From positions 1-23,689 of the IMG/VR virus record IMGVR_UViG_3300037584_000209: 23,689 nt of DNA. One strand, 5' to 3'. Position 1 is the first letter of the stretch; each line of letters starts with the position of its first letter. The stretch is from a virus. Of the stretch, positions 2,362-20,070 are shown in pieces. A program made the position numbers and the translations under genes. The notes under the pieces were generated by a model. That model was not told the DNA's origin and did not search any database. It saw only the letters and a program-made list of their open reading frames with translations.

Positions 2362-2534
2362 TGTATCATGTTCATGATCAAGGCAAGTATTATAGCTCCG
2401 CCTCCACCCATGATCATTCTCTCCATCCTTGTTACACGTTCTTTGATTTCTTTTATTTGTTCAAAGGTCTGCTTTTGCATTATTCTGCAAAGCTTTTCGT
2501 GATCTTCAATTTTTTGTAACGCCGACTTTTTCAT
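2358..2534 (-). CDS. Small XhlA-like holin candidate (58 aa)
   Basis: A short gene between the large virion protein and the endolysin. Translation begins MKKSALQKIEDHEKLCRIMQ. Residues 1-38 are highly charged with heptad-like spacing, suggesting a helix or coiled coil (KIEDHEK, then IKEIKERVTRMERM). Residues about 41-56 are a Gly/Ile/Leu/Met-rich hydrophobic segment (MGGGGAIILALIMNM) that reads as one membrane helix. This charged-helix-then-single-TM plan, with ERVTRMERM before the TM, resembles the haemolysin XhlA family found in phage lysis cassettes. Its start shares a base with the preceding stop (TAATG) and its stop overlaps the endolysin start (ATGA). Holin or holin-accessory function is inferred from topology and position; a membrane-anchored spanin-like role is an alternative. 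Confidence 0.8.
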   Translation of the reverse strand: MKKSALQKIEDHEKLCRIMQKQTFEQIKEIKERVTRMERMIMGGGGAIILALIMNMIQ

Positions 2535-5500
2535 TATGTTGTTCTACTCGCTATAATTTTTTCTTCAGGTGATAGTAAAGCTTCTTGTGTACGTGTCAAG
2601 TTAGTATTTGGATTCACATCAGCTCTAGCTGTTTGCACCACAGGCATTGCCATATTAGGTAATGGTGGTGTCTGTATATTAGCTAATTGTGTTGTTTCTT
2701 CTTGACCAGGTAGTGAGCTTTGATTACCCGATATACTTTCTTTAAATTTTTCTAATTCTAACAATTTTGTATCTGGTTCTTCTATTTTTAAAGTTTTGTT
2801 TTTATATTCCCTTAATATATCTCTAAATAATTTTTTAGGATAAAAATATTCTTTGTTAACAGTCTCACCCTCACCTCTTCTTTTTGCTTCTATCTGTGCT
2901 TCTTTAACTCTTTTCTTCATACGTTCTTCAAATCCTGTGTATGGTATGTTTTTACCATCTAATAGTCTTTTTGCTCTTTTGTATGACACGTCTCTTTTTC
3001 TTAAAATTTTTAACAACGTTCTTTTTGGTACACCCGTTTTTAATGCATCCTCTAATATTAAATGAAACTCTCTATTTACTTTTAACGTTTCATCTTGAAT
3101 TTGTCTAAACTCATCAGCTAGTACAAGTGGTCCTCTGTTTTGATAGTTTTCTAAACTAAATAATTTTTCTGTTTGTGTAACAGATCTAAATTTTTTATTG
3201 TAATCTGTAATTTTAAATTGCATTGCCTTTGGTACATCTACGTTTATAATTCTTATACCTGAAAATAACGCAAGTAATTCATCTTGTAGTGTCACCGGTT
3301 GTCCACCTCGTTTAAGATCTTTCTCCAAACCTTGTACAAGTTTACCTGCAGTTGTAATTGCAGTTGGTTGAACACCTTCTATAATGTGCACCAAACTTTT
3401 CATAAAAGCATCTGGTCCGTCGTCCGTGATTGAATATACTCTTGATCCTGTTTTAGTAACACCACCTCTACCACCGAATCCAACTCCTGATGGTAATGTG
3501 TCTAATACTTTTTCAAAAAAGATTGCCTCTGATATAAATGGATCTAAAAGTTTTCTCACAGGTCCATCTTCTCCTAACATTAAATTCCATGCTACGTTAC
3601 CAGCATCTTCCTGTTTTACTTTACCTTCTTCTAATGTTTTTAATGCAGCACCAAAAGGTTGTTTTACAACATCGTACGGACTAAAGTATGAGAAGTTAAT
3701 CGCTTTACCAACACCCTCTTTCCATTTATTGATTGGTATGATTGCAGCTCTTGAATCCCATGGTGCTGATAAACTTCTTTTGTATGCATCTATCTGTTCC
3801 ATAGTTACACCTGTTAAGTTCTGACCTATCGTAGACACAGCTTTTTCTGCACCACCTAAAGTAACTAGTGAACCAATTAATCTTCTGTAACCCATCTGTC
3901 TTAGATTTGCATTTGATGATGTAGCTTCTTTTAATCCTAAACTTAATATGTTGTATGTTGTTCTAATCATCTCTGCAGGAAACGATACGAAGTTACCAAA
4001 TGGTAGCTTTCTTAAATTTTGTATGACTTCAGGAACTTTACTGTATGTTGGATATGTATTTCTTATCTGCCATGCAGCTGCTTCATCTAAAGCTTCGTCA
4101 AATGTTTTTAATTTACCTGTAAACGTATTGACTTTATCAAAATCTCTACCAACAATCTCTTTGGTCCATCGTGCAATATCATCTACGTTTTTGTAAATAG
4201 ATTTCATTTGTGATTTTACATACTCGTGACCATACCATTTCCATAAGTTATCACCTCCAGCATATATTCTTGTAGCTGTTTTTAACATTCTTGACTCGGA
4301 TAGTCTTGCAAGTAAGCTGTCCATATTCTTAACTTTTGCACCAGCTTTAATATCTTTTAATACAGCTTTTAATTCTGATGCCACAATGTTTTCATCAATG
4401 ACACCAAGACGTATTTTGTTTTCTAAATTTTTTATAAATTTAGTTTCATCAATAATCTTTCCTGCACCAAATATATCATCAACAACCATTTTAATTGATT
4501 CTGTTACTGATGATCTACCACCGATATGTCCATTAGCTAACGGAAACATACTAGCAGAAGTTACGTTTCTAACTTGTGTTGCAGGTGAAAGAACTGTTTT
4601 ACCAAACTGTGTTGCTACTTTAAACTGTAACATATTTCTGTATGCAGAACTTTGTAGTAAACCATCTAATTTACCTGGTGCACCTTTAAAAGCTTTAGCC
4701 ATATCTGCAGAAGCATATAATTTAGATATACTACTTTTTAATATACCAAGACTTGAAAGATCTCCTATCTTTTGTGCATCAAAAGCATTTTTAGCAATTG
4801 CATCTGATTCTGATTTATACAACCACCCTTCATCTAAACCTATTCTTGCTAGTTTATCTAAAGTTTGTTTATTAACTGCTTGTGTGATTGCATGTGATGT
4901 TGTTTGTAATACAGATGATTTTAAATTATTTTCTTCACCTAGTAATTTTTTAATTGCATCTGGTAATTCATCACCTGTCTTAATTAATTTGTCAGATCTT
5001 AATTGATCTTTAGCTACGTTTTGTAATAGTTTTAAAGGATCAACTCCATCTGTTTTTGTATTAATTAAAATTTTGTGGACCATAGAATCTGCCATAGCAT
5101 CTAATGCTTGTGCATCTGTCATCTTAGATGTTTTTAAAGTATTAATTGCACTTTCTCTTATGTCTTTGTTTCTTTTTACGACGTTGTTTAGTATCCATGC
5201 TTTTGCACCATCTTTTAATTTTTGGTCCGGCATGTATTCTGGATTTGTAAATATAGAGAAAGACTTTCTCATGTATGTTTTAATATTATCTAAAATAAAA
5301 TTTTTAAGATCACCTTTTGGTAATAACTCACCAAAGATTTGTTTTGTATTTATCATCTCTTTATTTAAATCTTCAGCAGTTTGTTGAAGAGCTTTTGGTA
5401 AGTCTGATTTTTTTATTTGTCCTTTTAGATACGCAAGCACTTGATCAAGATAATAGTCTTTACTTGCAGGTGATGTAGTGGCTGTGTTATACATACCTTC

Positions 5501-6724
5501 AAAACCTTTGGCTAAATCATATGACTTTTTTTCTATTGATTCTAAATATTTTTCTATTGTTCTCGCCCTTGCTTTTATTTCTCTTCGTGCTTCTGACGTA
5601 AGTTGATAACCAAGACCTGTGTATTTACCAAGTGATCTAAACCCAGATAAAAAGTTATCTACTTTTTTTAATCTAGCTTGTAATGGATCTTTACTAGTTG
5701 TTGAAAACATTCTCCATTTATCAAATGCGGGCAATTGTTTTTTAGGATTACCGGTTAACACTGTTGACAATGTTTTATCTACAACATAGTTACTTGCATT
5801 TCTTAAACCTTTACCAGCAGCTGTGGATCCTGGTATTCTTGATAAAAGATACGTTACAGGTCTAACAGCTAATGTATCAACACCTCGCAGTGCGTACCCT
5901 GCAGGTTTCATTAAACCATACTTTGCACCAAACGTTGCAACCTTACCAAGTGGTTTACCCATTAATGGAAATAAAAAACCTATAGTGCTTCCCTCTGCAC
6001 CAAATCTAAGTTTGTTTCTAAATCTAGCCAATGCAAGATCTTGTCCTTCTAAACCTTCTTCACTTTCAAGGTCCATGAGCAGTGGTTCATCGCCCGCTCT
6101 TTGTCTAGCCCCTGACGTAATAAAATCTGTTGCACCAAAAGCAGTTGCCATGTAGCCAGATCGTTTTGCAATATTCGCTATTTTAGTTCCTGCAGTACCT
6201 GCAGCTATTGTTTTATCTTTTACTTTTTTAGCTTTAATTAATTTTTTAGCTCTGTTCATTACTTTGAACACAGCACCACCTGGTAGACCATATTCAATCA
6301 GAACTTTATTTACTGTGCCTAATAATGTTTCAGGATCATCTATTTTTGTTTCGTCATAAATCTTATCTAATTTTGTTGTAAGCTCAGTATTGACCGCTGC
6401 ATCAATACCAGTGGTAATAAGATCACCAAACGAGTAACCTATATTTTGTACAGCACCATATATAGATTTTTCCATGTCTTCAAAAAAATCTATGTAGTCT
6501 TTTTCTTTTGGTTTATCTTTATTATCCATCAACTCTCTGAGTCTTTCATTTCTCATCTTGTCGAATGGATTTGTAGTAAATACTTTGCTAAAATTTTTAA
6601 GACCTTCCCATGTAAATTTTACAGGTTTCTTTTGTTTGGTAAGTGTTTTTTGTAAAGAAGATGAAAGTGTCTCTTTGACTTGATCTTGGTCTAAGATAAT
6701 TTTTGTTTTATTAAAGGGTTCCAT
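2534..6724 (-). CDS. Giant internal virion / DNA-ejection-type protein (1396 aa)
   Basis: The largest gene here. It has no signal peptide or recognisable catalytic motif. The sequence is largely helical, Lys-rich and Asp/Asn-rich, with scattered hydrophobic Gly/Ala segments in the N-terminal third (about 150-320). A conserved-looking patch LSPATQVRN lies at 712-720, and the extreme C-terminus carries LTRTQEALLSPEEK (1376-1389) after a Pro-rich linker. I associate both with the giant structural proteins of marine short-tailed phages. By size and position (last virion gene before lysis, after three other internal-protein candidates) it is the counterpart of large podovirus ejection proteins such as T7 gp16, but I see no transglycosylase motif. 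Its ATG directly follows the upstream TAG, and its TAA shares a base with the holin ATG. The structural role is likely; the precise role is inferred. Confidence 0.75.
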   Translation of the reverse strand: MEPFNKTKIILDQDQVKETLSSSLQKTLTKQKKPVKFTWEGLKNFSKVFTTNPFDKMRNERLRELMDNKDKPKEKDYIDFFEDMEKSIYGAVQNIGYSFGDLITTGIDAAVNTELTTKLDKIYDETKIDDPETLLGTVNKVLIEYGLPGGAVFKVMNRAKKLIKAKKVKDKTIAAGTAGTKIANIAKRSGYMATAFGATDFITSGARQRAGDEPLLMDLESEEGLEGQDLALARFRNKLRFGAEGSTIGFLFPLMGKPLGKVATFGAKYGLMKPAGYALRGVDTLAVRPVTYLLSRIPGSTAAGKGLRNASNYVVDKTLSTVLTGNPKKQLPAFDKWRMFSTTSKDPLQARLKKVDNFLSGFRSLGKYTGLGYQLTSEARREIKARARTIEKYLESIEKKSYDLAKGFEGMYNTATTSPASKDYYLDQVLAYLKGQIKKSDLPKALQQTAEDLNKEMINTKQIFGELLPKGDLKNFILDNIKTYMRKSFSIFTNPEYMPDQKLKDGAKAWILNNVVKRNKDIRESAINTLKTSKMTDAQALDAMADSMVHKILINTKTDGVDPLKLLQNVAKDQLRSDKLIKTGDELPDAIKKLLGEENNLKSSVLQTTSHAITQAVNKQTLDKLARIGLDEGWLYKSESDAIAKNAFDAQKIGDLSSLGILKSSISKLYASADMAKAFKGAPGKLDGLLQSSAYRNMLQFKVATQFGKTVLSPATQVRNVTSASMFPLANGHIGGRSSVTESIKMVVDDIFGAGKIIDETKFIKNLENKIRLGVIDENIVASELKAVLKDIKAGAKVKNMDSLLARLSESRMLKTATRIYAGGDNLWKWYGHEYVKSQMKSIYKNVDDIARWTKEIVGRDFDKVNTFTGKLKTFDEALDEAAAWQIRNTYPTYSKVPEVIQNLRKLPFGNFVSFPAEMIRTTYNILSLGLKEATSSNANLRQMGYRRLIGSLVTLGGAEKAVSTIGQNLTGVTMEQIDAYKRSLSAPWDSRAAIIPINKWKEGVGKAINFSYFSPYDVVKQPFGAALKTLEEGKVKQEDAGNVAWNLMLGEDGPVRKLLDPFISEAIFFEKVLDTLPSGVGFGGRGGVTKTGSRVYSITDDGPDAFMKSLVHIIEGVQPTAITTAGKLVQGLEKDLKRGGQPVTLQDELLALFSGIRIINVDVPKAMQFKITDYNKKFRSVTQTEKLFSLENYQNRGPLVLADEFRQIQDETLKVNREFHLILEDALKTGVPKRTLLKILRKRDVSYKRAKRLLDGKNIPYTGFEERMKKRVKEAQIEAKRRGEGETVNKEYFYPKKLFRDILREYKNKTLKIEEPDTKLLELEKFKESISGNQSSLPGQEETTQLANIQTPPLPNMAMPVVQTARADVNPNTNLTRTQEALLSPEEKIIASRTT

Positions 6725-14532: not shown

Positions 14533-15969
14533 TTACCTAGCTGTTACTGGCACCGCTGTTCCAGAATCGTTAGCTACAAACGGATTTTTTGCAAAAGCCA
14601 TAAAAAGATATGTATTTCCAGACGTGTTTAGATGACCAGTTGATGCTCTTACTTTAAAACCATTTGAAAGTATATCTAAATTTGCAGTTGATGTTGTAGT
14701 ATTTTCTGCATTAGATCCATTTGCAAATACAAAACTATAGTTTGTATTAAAGCCTAATCTTTTATCATCATATATATTCCAATTATCTGTTCCGTTTTTA
14801 TTTTTTATTATAACAAAAGCTGGTTTAAATCCTGTATGAACAGATGCTCCATTTGCATTTCCATTTCCTGAATAAGTTCCAAATTTTGAATATCCTTTTA
14901 CATCATTAAAACAATAACCAATATATGTTCCACTACTTGCATTTACATCAACACTCGTTTTAACATTAAATAGAGTTGAAGTTGGTGCTGTGTCATTCCA
15001 AATATCAGTTGTAAAAGCAGCTTCTGCAAGATTAAATCTAATATCTTGTGTTGCTGCATTACCTGAATGATAAACATGCCAATTAGAACTACCTGCATCT
15101 CTTCGTTTTACAAAATACCATTTTGGAATTGTTCCTAATCCGTGTCCAATTGTTGCTGCGCTACCTGTTCCTGTATAAGTAACAACACTAAATCCAGCAG
15201 TAGTATTTGTAGAAACAGTTGATTGAATGCTACCTGAAAAATTAGACGAGCCATGTGTAGAATTTGTATTTGCTTGTCCACCCATTCCAGAGTGTTGTGT
15301 GCAATAGTAATAAAGAGTTGGTGCAGATGCAGCTACTGTAATTACAGTTTTTGCGCCAGCACTTCCTGGTGTTCCAGTAGTTGTTACACCGGTCGTATAC
15401 TCACTTCCTCCACCATGTGATCCATCTGATGTCGTAGAAAATCTTAATGGGTGTCCTGAGTTAGAACTATCGGATTGATCAAATGTGTACGTGCCACCTT
15501 CTTGTAAATCTAATGTAACAGCACTAGTGCCATAGTCATCAAATCTATATTTGTTTCCACTATCTGAAACTACTTTTACTGAGTATGTTATAGCTGGTGC
15601 AGTTCCTCCAGCGAGCCAATTCCATGCTACATACGTTCTGCCACTTTCATTCCAATAACCATATCCATCTGCACCACCATCTGAGCCTTTTGTTGCAGTA
15701 AATCCTGTTGAAGTTGTACCCGAAATATATCCATATTGATCTGCTGTTCCTCCACCTTCTGCTGCAGTTTGTGAACATTGTAAATCTTTATCATTACCAA
15801 ATCCTCTAACACTATCATATAATTGATGATTATATGCAGTATTTCTTAGTTTACCCCAAATCCAATCAGGTTGAAATCCAACTGTAAGACTTTCTGGAGA
15901 AGAAGAATCTCCACTCCAAGTTATAGTATTAAAATGATCCTCTGGTTTTGTAATTGAACTATAAGACAT
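14533..15969 (-). CDS. DUF7483-like tail fibre protein with inserted cupredoxin-like domain (478 aa)
   Basis: A virion surface or receptor-binding protein by family and position. Three related units, GxxPxWxxxK followed by WxxY, occur at about 30-55, 276-302 and 379-404, and the C-terminal half carries GYSKFGTYSGNG (359-370) and LDILSNGFKVRAS (431-443), as in DUF7483-type fibre proteins. Between units 1 and 2, residues about 125-235 form an all-beta domain. It has GGTYTFDQSDSSNSGHPLRF (158-177) and LYYYCTQHSGMGGQ (219-232), giving His173, Cys223, His226 and Met229 in the order of a type-1 copper site. The paralogue at 17528-18577 lacks exactly this domain. Cys223 is the only Cys inside the domain. 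The start lies 5 bases after the previous stop. Copper binding is inferred from motif order alone. Confidence 0.82.
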   Translation of the reverse strand: MSYSSITKPEDHFNTITWSGDSSSPESLTVGFQPDWIWGKLRNTAYNHQLYDSVRGFGNDKDLQCSQTAAEGGGTADQYGYISGTTSTGFTATKGSDGGADGYGYWNESGRTYVAWNWLAGGTAPAITYSVKVVSDSGNKYRFDDYGTSAVTLDLQEGGTYTFDQSDSSNSGHPLRFSTTSDGSHGGGSEYTTGVTTTGTPGSAGAKTVITVAASAPTLYYYCTQHSGMGGQANTNSTHGSSNFSGSIQSTVSTNTTAGFSVVTYTGTGSAATIGHGLGTIPKWYFVKRRDAGSSNWHVYHSGNAATQDIRFNLAEAAFTTDIWNDTAPTSTLFNVKTSVDVNASSGTYIGYCFNDVKGYSKFGTYSGNGNANGASVHTGFKPAFVIIKNKNGTDNWNIYDDKRLGFNTNYSFVFANGSNAENTTTSTANLDILSNGFKVRASTGHLNTSGNTYLFMAFAKNPFVANDSGTAVPVTAR

Positions 15970-15974
15970 AATTT

Positions 15975-17528
15975 TTATCCATAAGTATTTAAGTTAGATG
16001 TATTTAACGCATAATAACCCGAAGGTACAGAATATTCGAAGTTTCCAAAACCATTAGCGTCACTGTTTCCTGATGAAATTGAGAAAGGTGGATTACCAAA
16101 ATTAAAAGAATAATGTTCAGCATTATAATAATTTGCAATAGCTGGTAAATAATTATGACCAGACGTTATGCTAAAAGCAGCATTAGTTCCTGAAGATCCT
16201 GAAGTTGGATCACCACTTGCTTGTACTGTACCATTTTTAGAAAAATATAATTTATGATTATCTAAATCTAAAAACACACCAACAATATCTCCTACTGTAT
16301 AACTATCTCCATAAGATACACCATTAGCAGTAACAGTATCATTGTTAAGTTTTTTTCCATCTTTGCCATGATAAGCATAGCCTTGTGCAGTTCCAAAAAA
16401 TTTACCGTTTGATGATGTTTGATCTACTTGATCTGTTGAAACAACACCAATAGCAAAGTTATTTGGGTCTGAAGCTTCTTTAGCATCTATTTTAATTTCC
16501 CAATACCACTTACCACTTGTTAAACCAAAAGTGCCATAAAGTGTTCTCCAAGCATTACCATCATTACCATCTACTGCTAAATTACCATTTGTTAGTGTAT
16601 AGCTAGAAGCAGCATAATATAATGGATCTATGGTTGCATAATTTTCTACACATGTATCAGTAGACTGATCTATGCTCGTTAGATTATTTACAGTAAAATC
16701 GTTATTTAATCCTGATGCATCATTACCTAGATTTGAACTGTCTTTGAAATCAAGATAGAATGAATTATCTCCTGCAGAAGAAAATGCCCCTATCTTTTTA
16801 GGTTTCCATATTCCTGTTGCAGTGTCCGTTTCACCAAATGATGTTGAGTCTAGTTGTAGTCCATCTATAAAAACAAATTCAGCCATGTAACCATCAAAAT
16901 AATGATCACCATTATTTCTTTTTCCAATGTGAGTTGTGTAACTACTGCTAACATTTACTTGCATGTCGGAATCTTGTGATGGATAAGTTGAACTTGAAAA
17001 TGATGTTTCTTGTACTCCATTTATATATAGTTTTATTCTATTTGCTTCTGTGCTTTGTGTTGTATCTACCGCAACAACTATATGATACCAAGCAAGAGGA
17101 TCTCTAAATAATCTATTTGTTCTTAAAAGAACAGTTTGAGAGCCACTTACCATTTGTCTTATTCTTAAATCATTATTATCTACTGCATGATTACCTTGTA
17201 ATTCGATTTTAAATTGATTACTTTCATCTGCCGCATTATTAACAATCATATCTGCATCTGTATCATTTTTAGATAGAGATTTTTTAGCCCATACAGAATA
17301 AGTAAAAGTTTTTCTATTAGATAAACTATCTGTCTTAGTTAGATTATCGCTAGAATTTTCATCAAATCTACAAGAGTTATCTATACTTTGAGGACCTGTT
17401 GGCCATTGACTATTGCTTACAAAATTTGCAACATCGTTCATTCTCCACACACCACCTGCTACTCCTTTAAATAGTCCTCCTACAGGTGTGTTTGCTGGTC
17501 CGATTATTCCTCCGTTTTTTCTAGACAT
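15975..17528 (-). CDS. LamG plus SPRY-domain tail fibre protein, copy 2 (517 aa)
   Basis: Begins MSRKNGGIIGPANTPVGG. Residues about 50-240 are a laminin-G / concanavalin-like jelly roll: FTYSVWAKKS (75-84), DPLAWYHIVVAVDTT (143-157), IKLYINGVQETSF (165-177), DGYMAEFVFIDG (212-223). A linker with NNDFTVNNLTSIDQ (275-288) leads to a SPRY-type domain at about 330-480, with SGKWYWEIKI (338-347), GDIVGVFLDLDNHKLYFSKN (413-432) and a terminal FEYSVPSGYYALNT (497-510). LamG and SPRY are ligand- or glycan-binding folds, so a receptor-binding role fits. It is the close paralogue of the gene at 18577-20070. The start is fused with the stop of the preceding DUF7483-like gene (TAATG). Confidence 0.85.
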   Translation of the reverse strand: MSRKNGGIIGPANTPVGGLFKGVAGGVWRMNDVANFVSNSQWPTGPQSIDNSCRFDENSSDNLTKTDSLSNRKTFTYSVWAKKSLSKNDTDADMIVNNAADESNQFKIELQGNHAVDNNDLRIRQMVSGSQTVLLRTNRLFRDPLAWYHIVVAVDTTQSTEANRIKLYINGVQETSFSSSTYPSQDSDMQVNVSSSYTTHIGKRNNGDHYFDGYMAEFVFIDGLQLDSTSFGETDTATGIWKPKKIGAFSSAGDNSFYLDFKDSSNLGNDASGLNNDFTVNNLTSIDQSTDTCVENYATIDPLYYAASSYTLTNGNLAVDGNDGNAWRTLYGTFGLTSGKWYWEIKIDAKEASDPNNFAIGVVSTDQVDQTSSNGKFFGTAQGYAYHGKDGKKLNNDTVTANGVSYGDSYTVGDIVGVFLDLDNHKLYFSKNGTVQASGDPTSGSSGTNAAFSITSGHNYLPAIANYYNAEHYSFNFGNPPFSISSGNSDANGFGNFEYSVPSGYYALNTSNLNTYG

Positions 17529-18577
17529 TATCTTGCCGTCCCCGCTGCTTTAGTTCCTGATGTTACAAATGGAAACTCTGCGAAGGCCATGAAAATATAG
17601 TTAGTGCCATTTCCTTGTTCTCCAGTGCCACTACTTCTAAATTTCCAACCATTACTTAATATATCAATATTAGAGCCATTAAATTCAGTATCATTTGTAT
17701 CTGCTAATAATTGATCGTCAACTAAATTAAATCCAGGTCTTTTAGAGTCCCACATATACCAACTTTTTGTAGCATCAATTGCTTTAATCATAATCCAAGC
17801 TGGTCTAAAACCTGTGTAAACAAATGGTCCCTCTGTACTTCCATTTCCTACATAGCTTCCAAATTTGCTGTAGCCTTTTTTCTCTGCAAACGCATACATT
17901 ATACAAGTTCCATCATTAGTATTTAATTGAGAACTGTCTCCTAAAGTTACTACTGAAGATGTTGGTGCTGTATCATTCCATTTATCACTTGCATCACTTG
18001 TTGCGGCTGTTGTGTTCAAAACTAGATAATCTGTTTCTGGTGATGATGTATTTTTATGATGATACACATCCCATTCTTTTGTGGATGATATTGTTCTTGC
18101 AATAACCCATACTGGAGTGGTGCCTAAATGATGTGGTATCGTGTGACCAGCAGTTCTGTTACCAATATATCGTATTATAGAAAAACCAGCATCTGTATTT
18201 ACTGAACCTGTATAAGTTTTAGCAGTACCACTTCCACCTGTATTACCAGATACAGATGTTCCAGCTTTCCAGTTCCAAGCTACTATTCCATTACCATTTC
18301 CATTAACATTATCAGTAGCACCAACACTAAAACCATCACTATCAAAACTTGTAAAAGCCGAACTATAATCGCCCTCTGCACTATCACTATTTGTATATAA
18401 ATATTTTAATCCTCTTACAGAATCTATAGCCACAGGGTTTAATGCTTGATTTCTATTTTTTATCCAACACCAATCTGGCTGAAAACCAACACCTGTTATA
18501 GATTGTGTTCCACCATTTCCTGTATAGAGTTTAGTATTAAAATAATCTGTTGGTTTATCTATTGTTGTGTAAGCCAT
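17528..18577 (-). CDS. DUF7483-like tail fibre protein, copy 1 without cupredoxin domain (349 aa)
   Basis: Shares the plan of the 478-residue gene: N-terminal DKPTDYFNTKLYTGNG (7-22), unit 1 VGFQPDWCWIKNRNQ (30-44), WNWKAG (101-106), unit 2 HHLGTTPVWVIART (149-162) with WDVYHH, GYSKFGSYVGNGS (235-247), unit 3 YTGFRPAWIMIKAID (254-268), and NIDILSNGWKFRSSG (303-317). Where the paralogue has its roughly 110-residue cupredoxin-like domain this one has only a Gly/Ser/Thr linker (about 105-120). It is probably a virion surface protein acting with the adjacent LamG/SPRY protein. Both ends are TAATG fusions, so it is made in tight ratio with its neighbours. No signal peptide, TM segment or enzymatic motif is seen. 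Confidence 0.83.
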   Translation of the reverse strand: MAYTTIDKPTDYFNTKLYTGNGGTQSITGVGFQPDWCWIKNRNQALNPVAIDSVRGLKYLYTNSDSAEGDYSSAFTSFDSDGFSVGATDNVNGNGNGIVAWNWKAGTSVSGNTGGSGTAKTYTGSVNTDAGFSIIRYIGNRTAGHTIPHHLGTTPVWVIARTISSTKEWDVYHHKNTSSPETDYLVLNTTAATSDASDKWNDTAPTSSVVTLGDSSQLNTNDGTCIMYAFAEKKGYSKFGSYVGNGSTEGPFVYTGFRPAWIMIKAIDATKSWYMWDSKRPGFNLVDDQLLADTNDTEFNGSNIDILSNGWKFRSSGTGEQGNGTNYIFMAFAEFPFVTSGTKAAGTAR

Positions 18578-20070
18578 TATCCAAACTCCGCTAAGTTTTT
18601 TGTGTTAAGTGCATAATATCCACTAGGCACTGCATATTCAAAATTTCCATAGCCATTACCATCTGCATTGCTAGATGAGATTGAAAAAGATGGAGAGCCA
18701 AAGTTTGCTTCAAATACTCCACTATATGAGCCATCGTCATATCCAAATGCCGGATGCCAAACTCCTGTTTTAGGTGTATAGCTTGAAATATCTATTGCAG
18801 TTCCACTATTTTGTGCAGTTCCATTTTTATAAAAAGTTAATTCATTATCATCTAAATTTAAAGCAACTCCTATAATATCTCCTGGTGCATAAGTGTTTCC
18901 ATAAGAGGCAGGTGTACCTCTAATTTTACGATTTCCATTAATCGCTTCATATGCAATTCCTTCAGTTTCTCCTAAACCACCTGTATTTGGTGGATCAATG
19001 TCTGCTATTCCAATTCTAGCATAATTATTAGAGCCATCTGTATCTGATACATATTTAACTTCCCAATACCATTTTCCAGATGACACACCTATAGTAGCTT
19101 GATTATAAGAAGTAGCTGATGAAGGTGTTGTGATTTTTAAATTTCCTTCACTAAAAGTGTTAGCAGAATTTGTAATAGCCAAAGGATTCATTACTGCAAA
19201 ATTATTGCTGCAGGTATCACTAGATTGATCGATACTTGTTAGGTTATTGACAGTAAAGTCGTTATCATTACCGGATACATCATTTCCTAGAGCGCTACTG
19301 TCTGCAAAATCCAATCTAAATCCATTGTTACCATACGTTCCAGCATAAGCTATAGGCTCCCAAATACTAGTAACAGGATTAAATGCGCCAAATGATGTTG
19401 GTTCTAGTTGTTGTCCATCAATAAAATAATATTCTGTTAAATAACCATCTAAAAAATCATTATCACCACCATTTGTACTATCAGCACCAATAGTGTTTTC
19501 TCTATTTTGTCCAAAACCTAATATATCATAATTTTGACTTGGATAAACTATTCCATCTCCACTACTATCAAATGATGTTTCCTGAACACCATTTACATAA
19601 ATTTTAATTCTATTAGTGTCTGTTGATTGGGTTGTATCTATAGCAATTACTATATGATACCACGCTGATGGGTCTCTAAATAATCTATTTGTTTTTAAAT
19701 GGCCTGGAACGGCATTATCTAAAAAAAGATTTAAAGTATTTGAGCTAAAAAGAATAGAATCTCTATTATTATTAGAGCCACTTGTATCAGCAGTTAAAAT
19801 TCTATCATTTCCACCAAATCCTGATCTCTTACACCAAAAAGAAAGTGTCATTTTTCTTGAACTTGTTGGTGTTCCAAATCCTGTTGTTCTTAAATAATCA
19901 TTACCACCTGAAAACCTACATGAATTAGCAATGGTTGTTTGTGGAAAGGCAAGAGGCCATATTGATGAAGATTGAGCTTCAAACTGACTATCTAAAGACC
20001 ATACACCTGAAGCAACTGACGTTGTTGGTGTATTTATTTTTCCTAAGATTCCGCCGTTATTCTGGTCCAT
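18577..20070 (-). CDS. LamG plus SPRY-domain tail fibre protein, copy 1 (497 aa)
   Basis: Begins MDQNNGGILGKINTPTTSVA. The LamG-like domain spans about 50-235: MTLSFWCKRS (74-83), DPSAWYHIVIAIDTTQST (133-150), IKIYVNGVQETSF (155-167), DGYLTEYYFIDG (208-219). After NDFTVNNLTSIDQSSDTC (270-287), a SPRY-like domain covers about 325-460: SGKWYWEVKY (331-340), GDIIGVALNLDDNELTFYKN (397-416). The terminal FEYAVPSGYYALNT (477-490) matches copy 2. Blocks shared with the 517-residue protein include the segment around TNRLFRDP, the DTTQST run and the linker. The start is supported by CGGAG seven bases upstream; its stop is fused with the next ATG. A receptor-binding role is inferred. Confidence 0.85.
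   Translation of the reverse strand: MDQNNGGILGKINTPTTSVASGVWSLDSQFEAQSSSIWPLAFPQTTIANSCRFSGGNDYLRTTGFGTPTSSRKMTLSFWCKRSGFGGNDRILTADTSGSNNNRDSILFSSNTLNLFLDNAVPGHLKTNRLFRDPSAWYHIVIAIDTTQSTDTNRIKIYVNGVQETSFDSSGDGIVYPSQNYDILGFGQNRENTIGADSTNGGDNDFLDGYLTEYYFIDGQQLEPTSFGAFNPVTSIWEPIAYAGTYGNNGFRLDFADSSALGNDVSGNDNDFTVNNLTSIDQSSDTCSNNFAVMNPLAITNSANTFSEGNLKITTPSSATSYNQATIGVSSGKWYWEVKYVSDTDGSNNYARIGIADIDPPNTGGLGETEGIAYEAINGNRKIRGTPASYGNTYAPGDIIGVALNLDDNELTFYKNGTAQNSGTAIDISSYTPKTGVWHPAFGYDDGSYSGVFEANFGSPSFSISSSNADGNGYGNFEYAVPSGYYALNTKNLAEFG

Follow-up and report, generated by a model that had tools for sequence, protein, structure and literature searches.

Introduction

Blue copper proteins of the plastocyanin, amicyanin and pseudoazurin type (PF00127, Copper-bind) are free periplasmic electron carriers, and the known cupredoxin domains of three-domain nitrite reductases (2dv6, 6tfo) and of rusticyanin also belong to electron-transfer proteins. 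Amicyanin, with the pattern HN...CTPHPFM, has a CxxHxxM spacing in its ligand loop, whereas a CuA site needs a second, bridging Cys (CxxxCxxxHxxM). On the attachment fibres of phages, the transition metal known or proposed to be bound is iron, as in the HxH tail fibres of T4 (gp37) and of Alteromonas phage R22Y (PMC11705849), in which paired His residues form an octahedral site within another fold.

The locus analysed here lies in a viral record, and the full 23,689 bases of that record are referred to below as the window. It encodes a fibre protein of the DUF7483 family (PF24299; PHROG 24898 and 19943), whose members PHROG assigns to the tail fibre or virion structural proteins. The fibre shows the part order of its relatives but, unlike most of them, carries a cupredoxin insert. 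This insert resembles the PF00127 proteins in its modelled fold, in the ligand order His-Cys-His-Met, in the HxxxF motif at the first ligand, in the aromatic residue two positions before the Cys and in a CxxHxxM loop of amicyanin length. It differs from them in scoring below the cut-off of the family, in being embedded in a fibre and in two positions at which amicyanin has Asn and Pro: the residue following the first His is Pro in 402 of 428 related domains instead of the usual Asn, and the residue preceding the second His is variable (most commonly N or A), with no conserved Pro. The best structural matches were the N-terminal cupredoxin domain of three-domain nitrite reductase and rusticyanin (Z 9.9 and 9.0), which matched along the entire domain at 12-18% identity. 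As with the iron-binding fibres (PMC11705849), a transition metal would sit on an attachment fibre, although here it is a prediction and the fibre of the window contains no HxH motif, its His residues being at positions 12, 48, 173, 185, 226, 239, 276, 298, 301, 378 and 446. No description of a cupredoxin or blue copper site on a phage fibre was found in the literature searched, which left out most subscription journals. The explanation that we favour, with moderate confidence, sees in the block a cupredoxin whose type 1 site is complete, inserted as a self-contained and optional module in the linker of a DUF7483 fibre, where it would have a generic accessory role.

Results

The insert lies in one of two tandem fibre modules

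The fibre gene (14533-15969, minus strand) is an open reading frame of 478 codons whose product passes the DUF7483 cut-off of 27 with 321 bits (Pfam stretch, residues 237-463) and matches tail fibre and virion structural families of PHROG. By alignment with paralogues lacking the insert and a search with the N-terminal part, the protein was divided into an N-terminal DUF7483 lobe (residues 1-121; 15607-15969, minus strand), the cupredoxin domain (residues 124-238; 15256-15600, minus strand), which is foreign to DUF7483, and the C-terminal DUF7483 part (residues 249-478; 14536-15225, minus strand). The initial annotation had placed a block of interest at residues 125-235, and these residues do map to 15265-15597 as it proposed. 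It had also described the neighbouring paralogue as collinear with the fibre except for exactly this block, and the alignment agrees: the 349-residue paralogue (17528-18577, minus strand) covers the whole DUF7483 profile in one stretch (368 bits), is 42% identical to the C-terminal part of the fibre and aligns with both halves of the latter, skipping the insert.

Each of these two genes has a partner encoding a Laminin_G_3 plus SPRY protein, as identified with Pfam and PHROG, located at 15975-17528 (minus strand) for the fibre and at 18577-20070 (minus strand) for the paralogue. The region 14533-20070 (minus strand) is made of a two-gene module, Laminin_G_3 plus SPRY followed by DUF7483, which is duplicated in tandem and bears the cupredoxin in its second copy only; in other phages the same Laminin_G_3/SPRY/DUF7483 units are fused into a single protein (phrog_19943). 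The closest relatives found through a neighbouring 728-residue protein were phage 023Pt_psg01 and the pelagiphages HTVC027P and HTVC023P. A 1396-residue protein encoded at 2534-6724 (minus strand) had no PHROG family match at E 1e-5, and its position suggests an internal virion protein. No pointer to copper handling was detected within the window.

Residues 124-238 are predicted to fold as a cupredoxin

The isolated domain was modelled with AlphaFold2 from an alignment of 97 sequences, comprising that of the window and its relatives from viral contigs. The resulting model was almost entirely beta (pLDDT 95.5, pTM 0.88), and a Foldseek search of the PDB returned first the N-terminal cupredoxin domain of the Hyphomicrobium nitrite reductase, followed by CueO and rusticyanin, with modest E-values of around 1e-3 (1.5e-3). 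In VIA, the domain was superimposed on the cupredoxin domain of 2dv6 over 101 of its 115 residues (Z 9.9, rmsd 2.5), and the best 50 structural matches listed were all of cupredoxin fold and nearly all copper proteins, including nitrite reductase, rusticyanin, small laccases, other multicopper oxidases and the A domain of coagulation factor VIII. The all-beta, cupredoxin-like unit anticipated by the initial annotation is borne out by this model and its matches. When the full-length fibre was modelled (pLDDT 85.4), residues 122-240 again matched cupredoxin folds; for the fold of DUF7483 itself the whole model gave no answer, its PDB matches landing mostly on the cupredoxin part.

At the sequence level, a profile of the domain was compared with the PDB, and all 41 sequences matched (E up to 10, best 1e-4) were copper proteins: nitrite reductases, plastocyanins, pseudoazurin, rusticyanins, amicyanins, multicopper oxidases and auracyanin. 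In the alignments shown, with plastocyanin and nitrite reductase, ligand residues were paired with ligand residues. The Pfam Copper-bind model (PF00127) gave 14.4-14.5 bits for the domain of the window, below its cut-off of 21.2, and 19.3 bits for the second copy of phage P-HM1, and it matched 24 of the 97 family members, with 4.9e-5 as the best value. Alignment with SAR11 pseudoazurins by hhalign reached a probability of 76%, which fell to 0.08% when the four ligand columns were masked. Therefore, the sequence evidence is that of the ligand motif, and the evidence for the fold is that of the model, a high-confidence one in which residues 124-238 form a cupredoxin.

Two other resemblances were considered. 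The At5g54830-like domain (PF25489) showed a weak sequence match in 13 of the 97 phage domains (best E 2e-5). The possibility that the viral nirK (PMC8115048) is a misannotated copy of this domain was discarded, since a true nitrite reductase is described in that paper.

The putative copper ligands are the most conserved residues

The four putative ligands are His173, the first equatorial ligand (codon at 15451-15453, minus strand), Cys223, the thiolate ligand (15301-15303, minus strand), His226, the second imidazole ligand (15292-15294, minus strand), and Met229, the axial ligand (15283-15285, minus strand). In the model, His173 is found just before the strand formed by residues 52-55 in the numbering of the domain, Cys223 ends the next-to-last strand (96-100), and the loop leading into the last strand (107-113) contains His226 and Met229. 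These strand positions correspond to the type 1 copper arrangement, and as modelled the four residues occupy type 1 ligand positions, in keeping with both the positions and the order that the initial annotation had given for them.

Conservation was analysed in 429 related domains, detected in 334 searched sequences, mostly of marine phages. His173 was present in 428 of 428 homologues, Cys223 in 425 of 427, His226 in 424 of 427 and Met229 in 412 of 427. The two domains without the Cys had also lost the second His. The Met229 column was the most variable of the four, its 15 exceptions being Gln (10), His (2), Leu, Val and Glu (one each); Gln is the natural axial ligand of stellacyanin. When 61 domain clusters of less than 70% identity were compared, the four ligand columns ranked first to fourth in conservation, so the free loss of ligands that would have spoken against the annotated site was not seen among homologues. 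The CxxHxx[MQHL] spacing was found in 422 of 426 domains; the spacing between the first His and the Cys ranged from 39 to 65, whereas that of Cys, His and Met was constant.

Since the search words themselves could carry ligand residues, 366 domains that could be found through words free of them were counted separately, and these kept the first His in 366 cases, the Cys in 365, the second His in 364 and the Met in 360. Ligand conservation was also unchanged in 51 flank copies that contained none of the search words, and an artefact of ligand-bearing words was rejected on both grounds. A disulphide does not explain the conservation of Cys223, as it is the sole Cys in 410 of 426 domains. A chance origin of the motif was likewise rejected, because CxxHxxM occurred only three times in 901,836 residues of the other reading frames of the same loci and the ligand columns are the top-ranked ones. 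The initial annotation had compared the short gap between His and Met to that of some CuA-type loops, and this comparison did not hold: the spacing is that of amicyanin, and the second Cys of a CuA site is absent. The YYCxxHSGMGG stretches that it mentioned for marine phages proved to be real and were located in 27 records of the phage collection and in at least 595 places in viral contigs.

The domain is carried by unrelated types of attachment-related protein in marine phages

The domain was found in the pelagiphages HTVC028P, Baldr, Hodr and Mosig, in the OM43 phage Melnitz and in cyanophages including S-TIM5, S-B68, Bellamy, P-HM1 and P-HM2, that is, in phages infecting SAR11, OM43, Synechococcus and Prochlorococcus. 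It is borne by four types of scaffold (a T7 fibre N-terminus, a T4 gp9/10 N-terminus, DUF7483 and a subtilase/Ig cyanophage protein), which are unrelated to each other and all related to attachment; the PHROG families of the carrier regions were tail fibre, baseplate wedge-fibre connector and virion structural protein.

In the Prochlorococcus phage P-HM1, the 1832-residue protein PHM1_104 (L087, 4650-10145) contains a subtilase (E 5.6e-28) flanked by two cupredoxins; the catalytic-triad motifs DTG, HGT and GTSF are present in it, and its annotation is merely that of a hypothetical protein with an Ig-type domain. In loci related to P-HM1 (L191, L186, L205, L206, L207 and L209), some copies have the axial Met replaced by Gln, in the motif CHxHTGQG; these copies lie near the 3' end of their open reading frames and are mostly extra ones beside other cupredoxins of the protein.

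The insert is an optional and slow-evolving part of the fibre

Within the DUF7483 family, a cupredoxin was found in the same slot, between the two DUF7483 parts, in some 70 proteins, both free-standing fibres and long fused proteins. Its boundaries were precise in the alignment with paralogues lacking it, and copies with and without insert occurred together within contigs. Of 56 DUF7483 units selected through their C-terminal flank, 54 lacked the insert and two had it.

When 74 domains were compared to that of the window, the median identity was 84% for the cupredoxin versus 40% and 45% for the flanks, a contrast biased upward by the ranking of these loci by domain identity. The pS values of the same comparison were about equal (0.63, 0.59 and 0.60), and pN was 0.135 in the cupredoxin versus 0.44 and 0.39 in the flanks. 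An artefact of ranking accounts for part of the high identity, but the contrast stood when the analysis was repeated on pairs chosen through another domain (73% versus 41% and 43%). Overall, within the same proteins the cupredoxin was about 73-79% identical and the flanks about 41%. Recent swapping of the cassette as the cause of conservation was not supported, as synonymous divergence, though near saturation, was similar to that of the flanks. Judged from these sequence comparisons, the cupredoxin module is the slow-evolving part of a fibre that otherwise changes fast.

These data bear on the possibility that the domain, with or without copper, is a host-specific receptor-binding tip whose gain or loss alters host range. 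Its presence in fibres as an optional cassette is what is often observed for receptor-binding modules, but specificity tips usually diversify fastest, whereas this domain is the slowest-evolving part of the fibre and is common to phages of SAR11, OM43, Synechococcus and Prochlorococcus. Since phages whose hosts are unrelated have this slowest-changing part in common, a generic role is likelier than that of a specificity tip, which we regard as unlikely, if the least unlikely of the alternatives. The initial annotation had suggested that a metal site might stabilise the fibre, sense copper or redox state, or bind copper-handling proteins of the host surface.

Slightly less probable still is that the domain is a mere beta-sandwich spacer, in which the conserved residues are kept for folding or act as a structural staple by holding a metal other than copper, such as zinc. 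Ig-like spacers abound in phage fibres, the P-HM1 and P-HM2 proteins with the domain are annotated as bearing an Ig-type Pfam domain, and a structural role would be consistent with the strong conservation. Nevertheless, a spacer has no need to fix a lone Cys, two His and a Met through such a large change of sequence, the exchanges of Met for Gln suit an axial ligand of copper better than a core residue, and the PDB matches were to copper proteins and not to Ig domains.

Cellular relatives of the domain

Outside phages, the domain was found in lipoproteins of SAR86, SAR92, OM182 and K189A bacteria and of Marine Group II archaea, and in one SAR86 family it was present in 19 of 40 genomes. The full site was kept in 45 of 46 cellular domains, the exception being cut by the end of its contig. 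In the scans made of these lipoproteins, the domain did not reach the cut-off of any Pfam or NCBIfam family. Several other contigs of the cell-derived set look viral. In a tree of the domain, built on too few columns to fix the directions of transfer, copies from viruses and cells were interleaved; the virus label changes 13 times, and at least two of these changes are required by well-supported branches.

The cellular loci (L349, L351, L355, L360-L365, L369, L462, L463 and L469-L472) encode Gly-rich lipoproteins in marine Gammaproteobacteria, SAR86 among them, and lipoproteins in Marine Group II archaea. One archaeon of the latter group encodes a predicted lipoprotein with collagen-like repeats and a C-terminal cupredoxin, a fibre-like layout (L358, 3987-5264).

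The existence of such relatives raises a further alternative, of about the same low probability as the spacer, namely that the domain mimics or competes with cupredoxins of the host surface and helps to dock the virion to redox or copper-uptake partners. For copper, this would parallel the Trojan-horse hypothesis that has been put forward for iron-bearing tail fibres (PMC11705849). The interleaved tree agrees with it, as does the close relationship to lipoproteins, predicted to lie at the cell surface, of SAR86, SAR92, OM182 and Marine Group II archaea, which have the same ligands. However, SAR11 phages carry the domain, yet only 1 of 79 SAR11 genomes has it and that single copy is in a fibre-like gene, so mimicry of a host copy was not supported in SAR11; pseudoazurin-type proteins of the ordinary kind were found there instead (11 of 41 genomes).

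Discussion

The results above point to a real and intact cupredoxin module which, as modelled, is new in the setting of a phage fibre. Blue copper proteins normally carry electrons and plastocyanin genes are present in some cyanophages, but a function of the domain as an electron-transfer or other auxiliary metabolic protein, acting in host metabolism during infection, is highly improbable, as the examined phages have it not as a free protein but within fibre proteins annotated as tail or virion structural.

The preferred explanation, an optional cupredoxin module with a generic accessory role, is made of parts of unequal strength. The site of the cupredoxin is very probably intact, and copper is likely to be really bound to it in the virion, while the accessory role in adhesion or contact is a tentative proposal. 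A lone conserved Cys on an outer protein of the virion would be hard to explain without a metal. According to the mechanism that we propose, the fibre would be made in the host as an apo-protein and would acquire a single copper ion, either once the cell has lysed or at the surface or envelope of the next host cell, and the site would be kept because the metal is needed. The copper-loaded head could then make or stabilise the contact as a host-independent accessory module of the attachment apparatus, whereas the fast-evolving parts of the fibre would set host specificity. It is conceivable, and we give it somewhat less than even credit, that the attachment fibres of abundant marine phages, those of SAR11, OM43, Synechococcus and Prochlorococcus, bear functional type 1 centres whose copper is obtained from sea water or from the host envelope and used in attachment. 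If this were true, copper would influence infection, and virions would form a pool that binds the metal.

A fold and a likely ligand can now be assigned to a module that PHROG annotation leaves without function. Iron is the metal that such fibres have been shown or proposed to bind, and a blue copper site on one of them would be new to the literature searched. The data suggest that marine phages carry copper on the parts with which they attach to the host. Should the site be occupied, copper would be exposed on the attachment parts of some of the most common marine viruses. This would offer a spectroscopic handle on a fibre domain and would link virus infection with the copper chemistry of the ocean.
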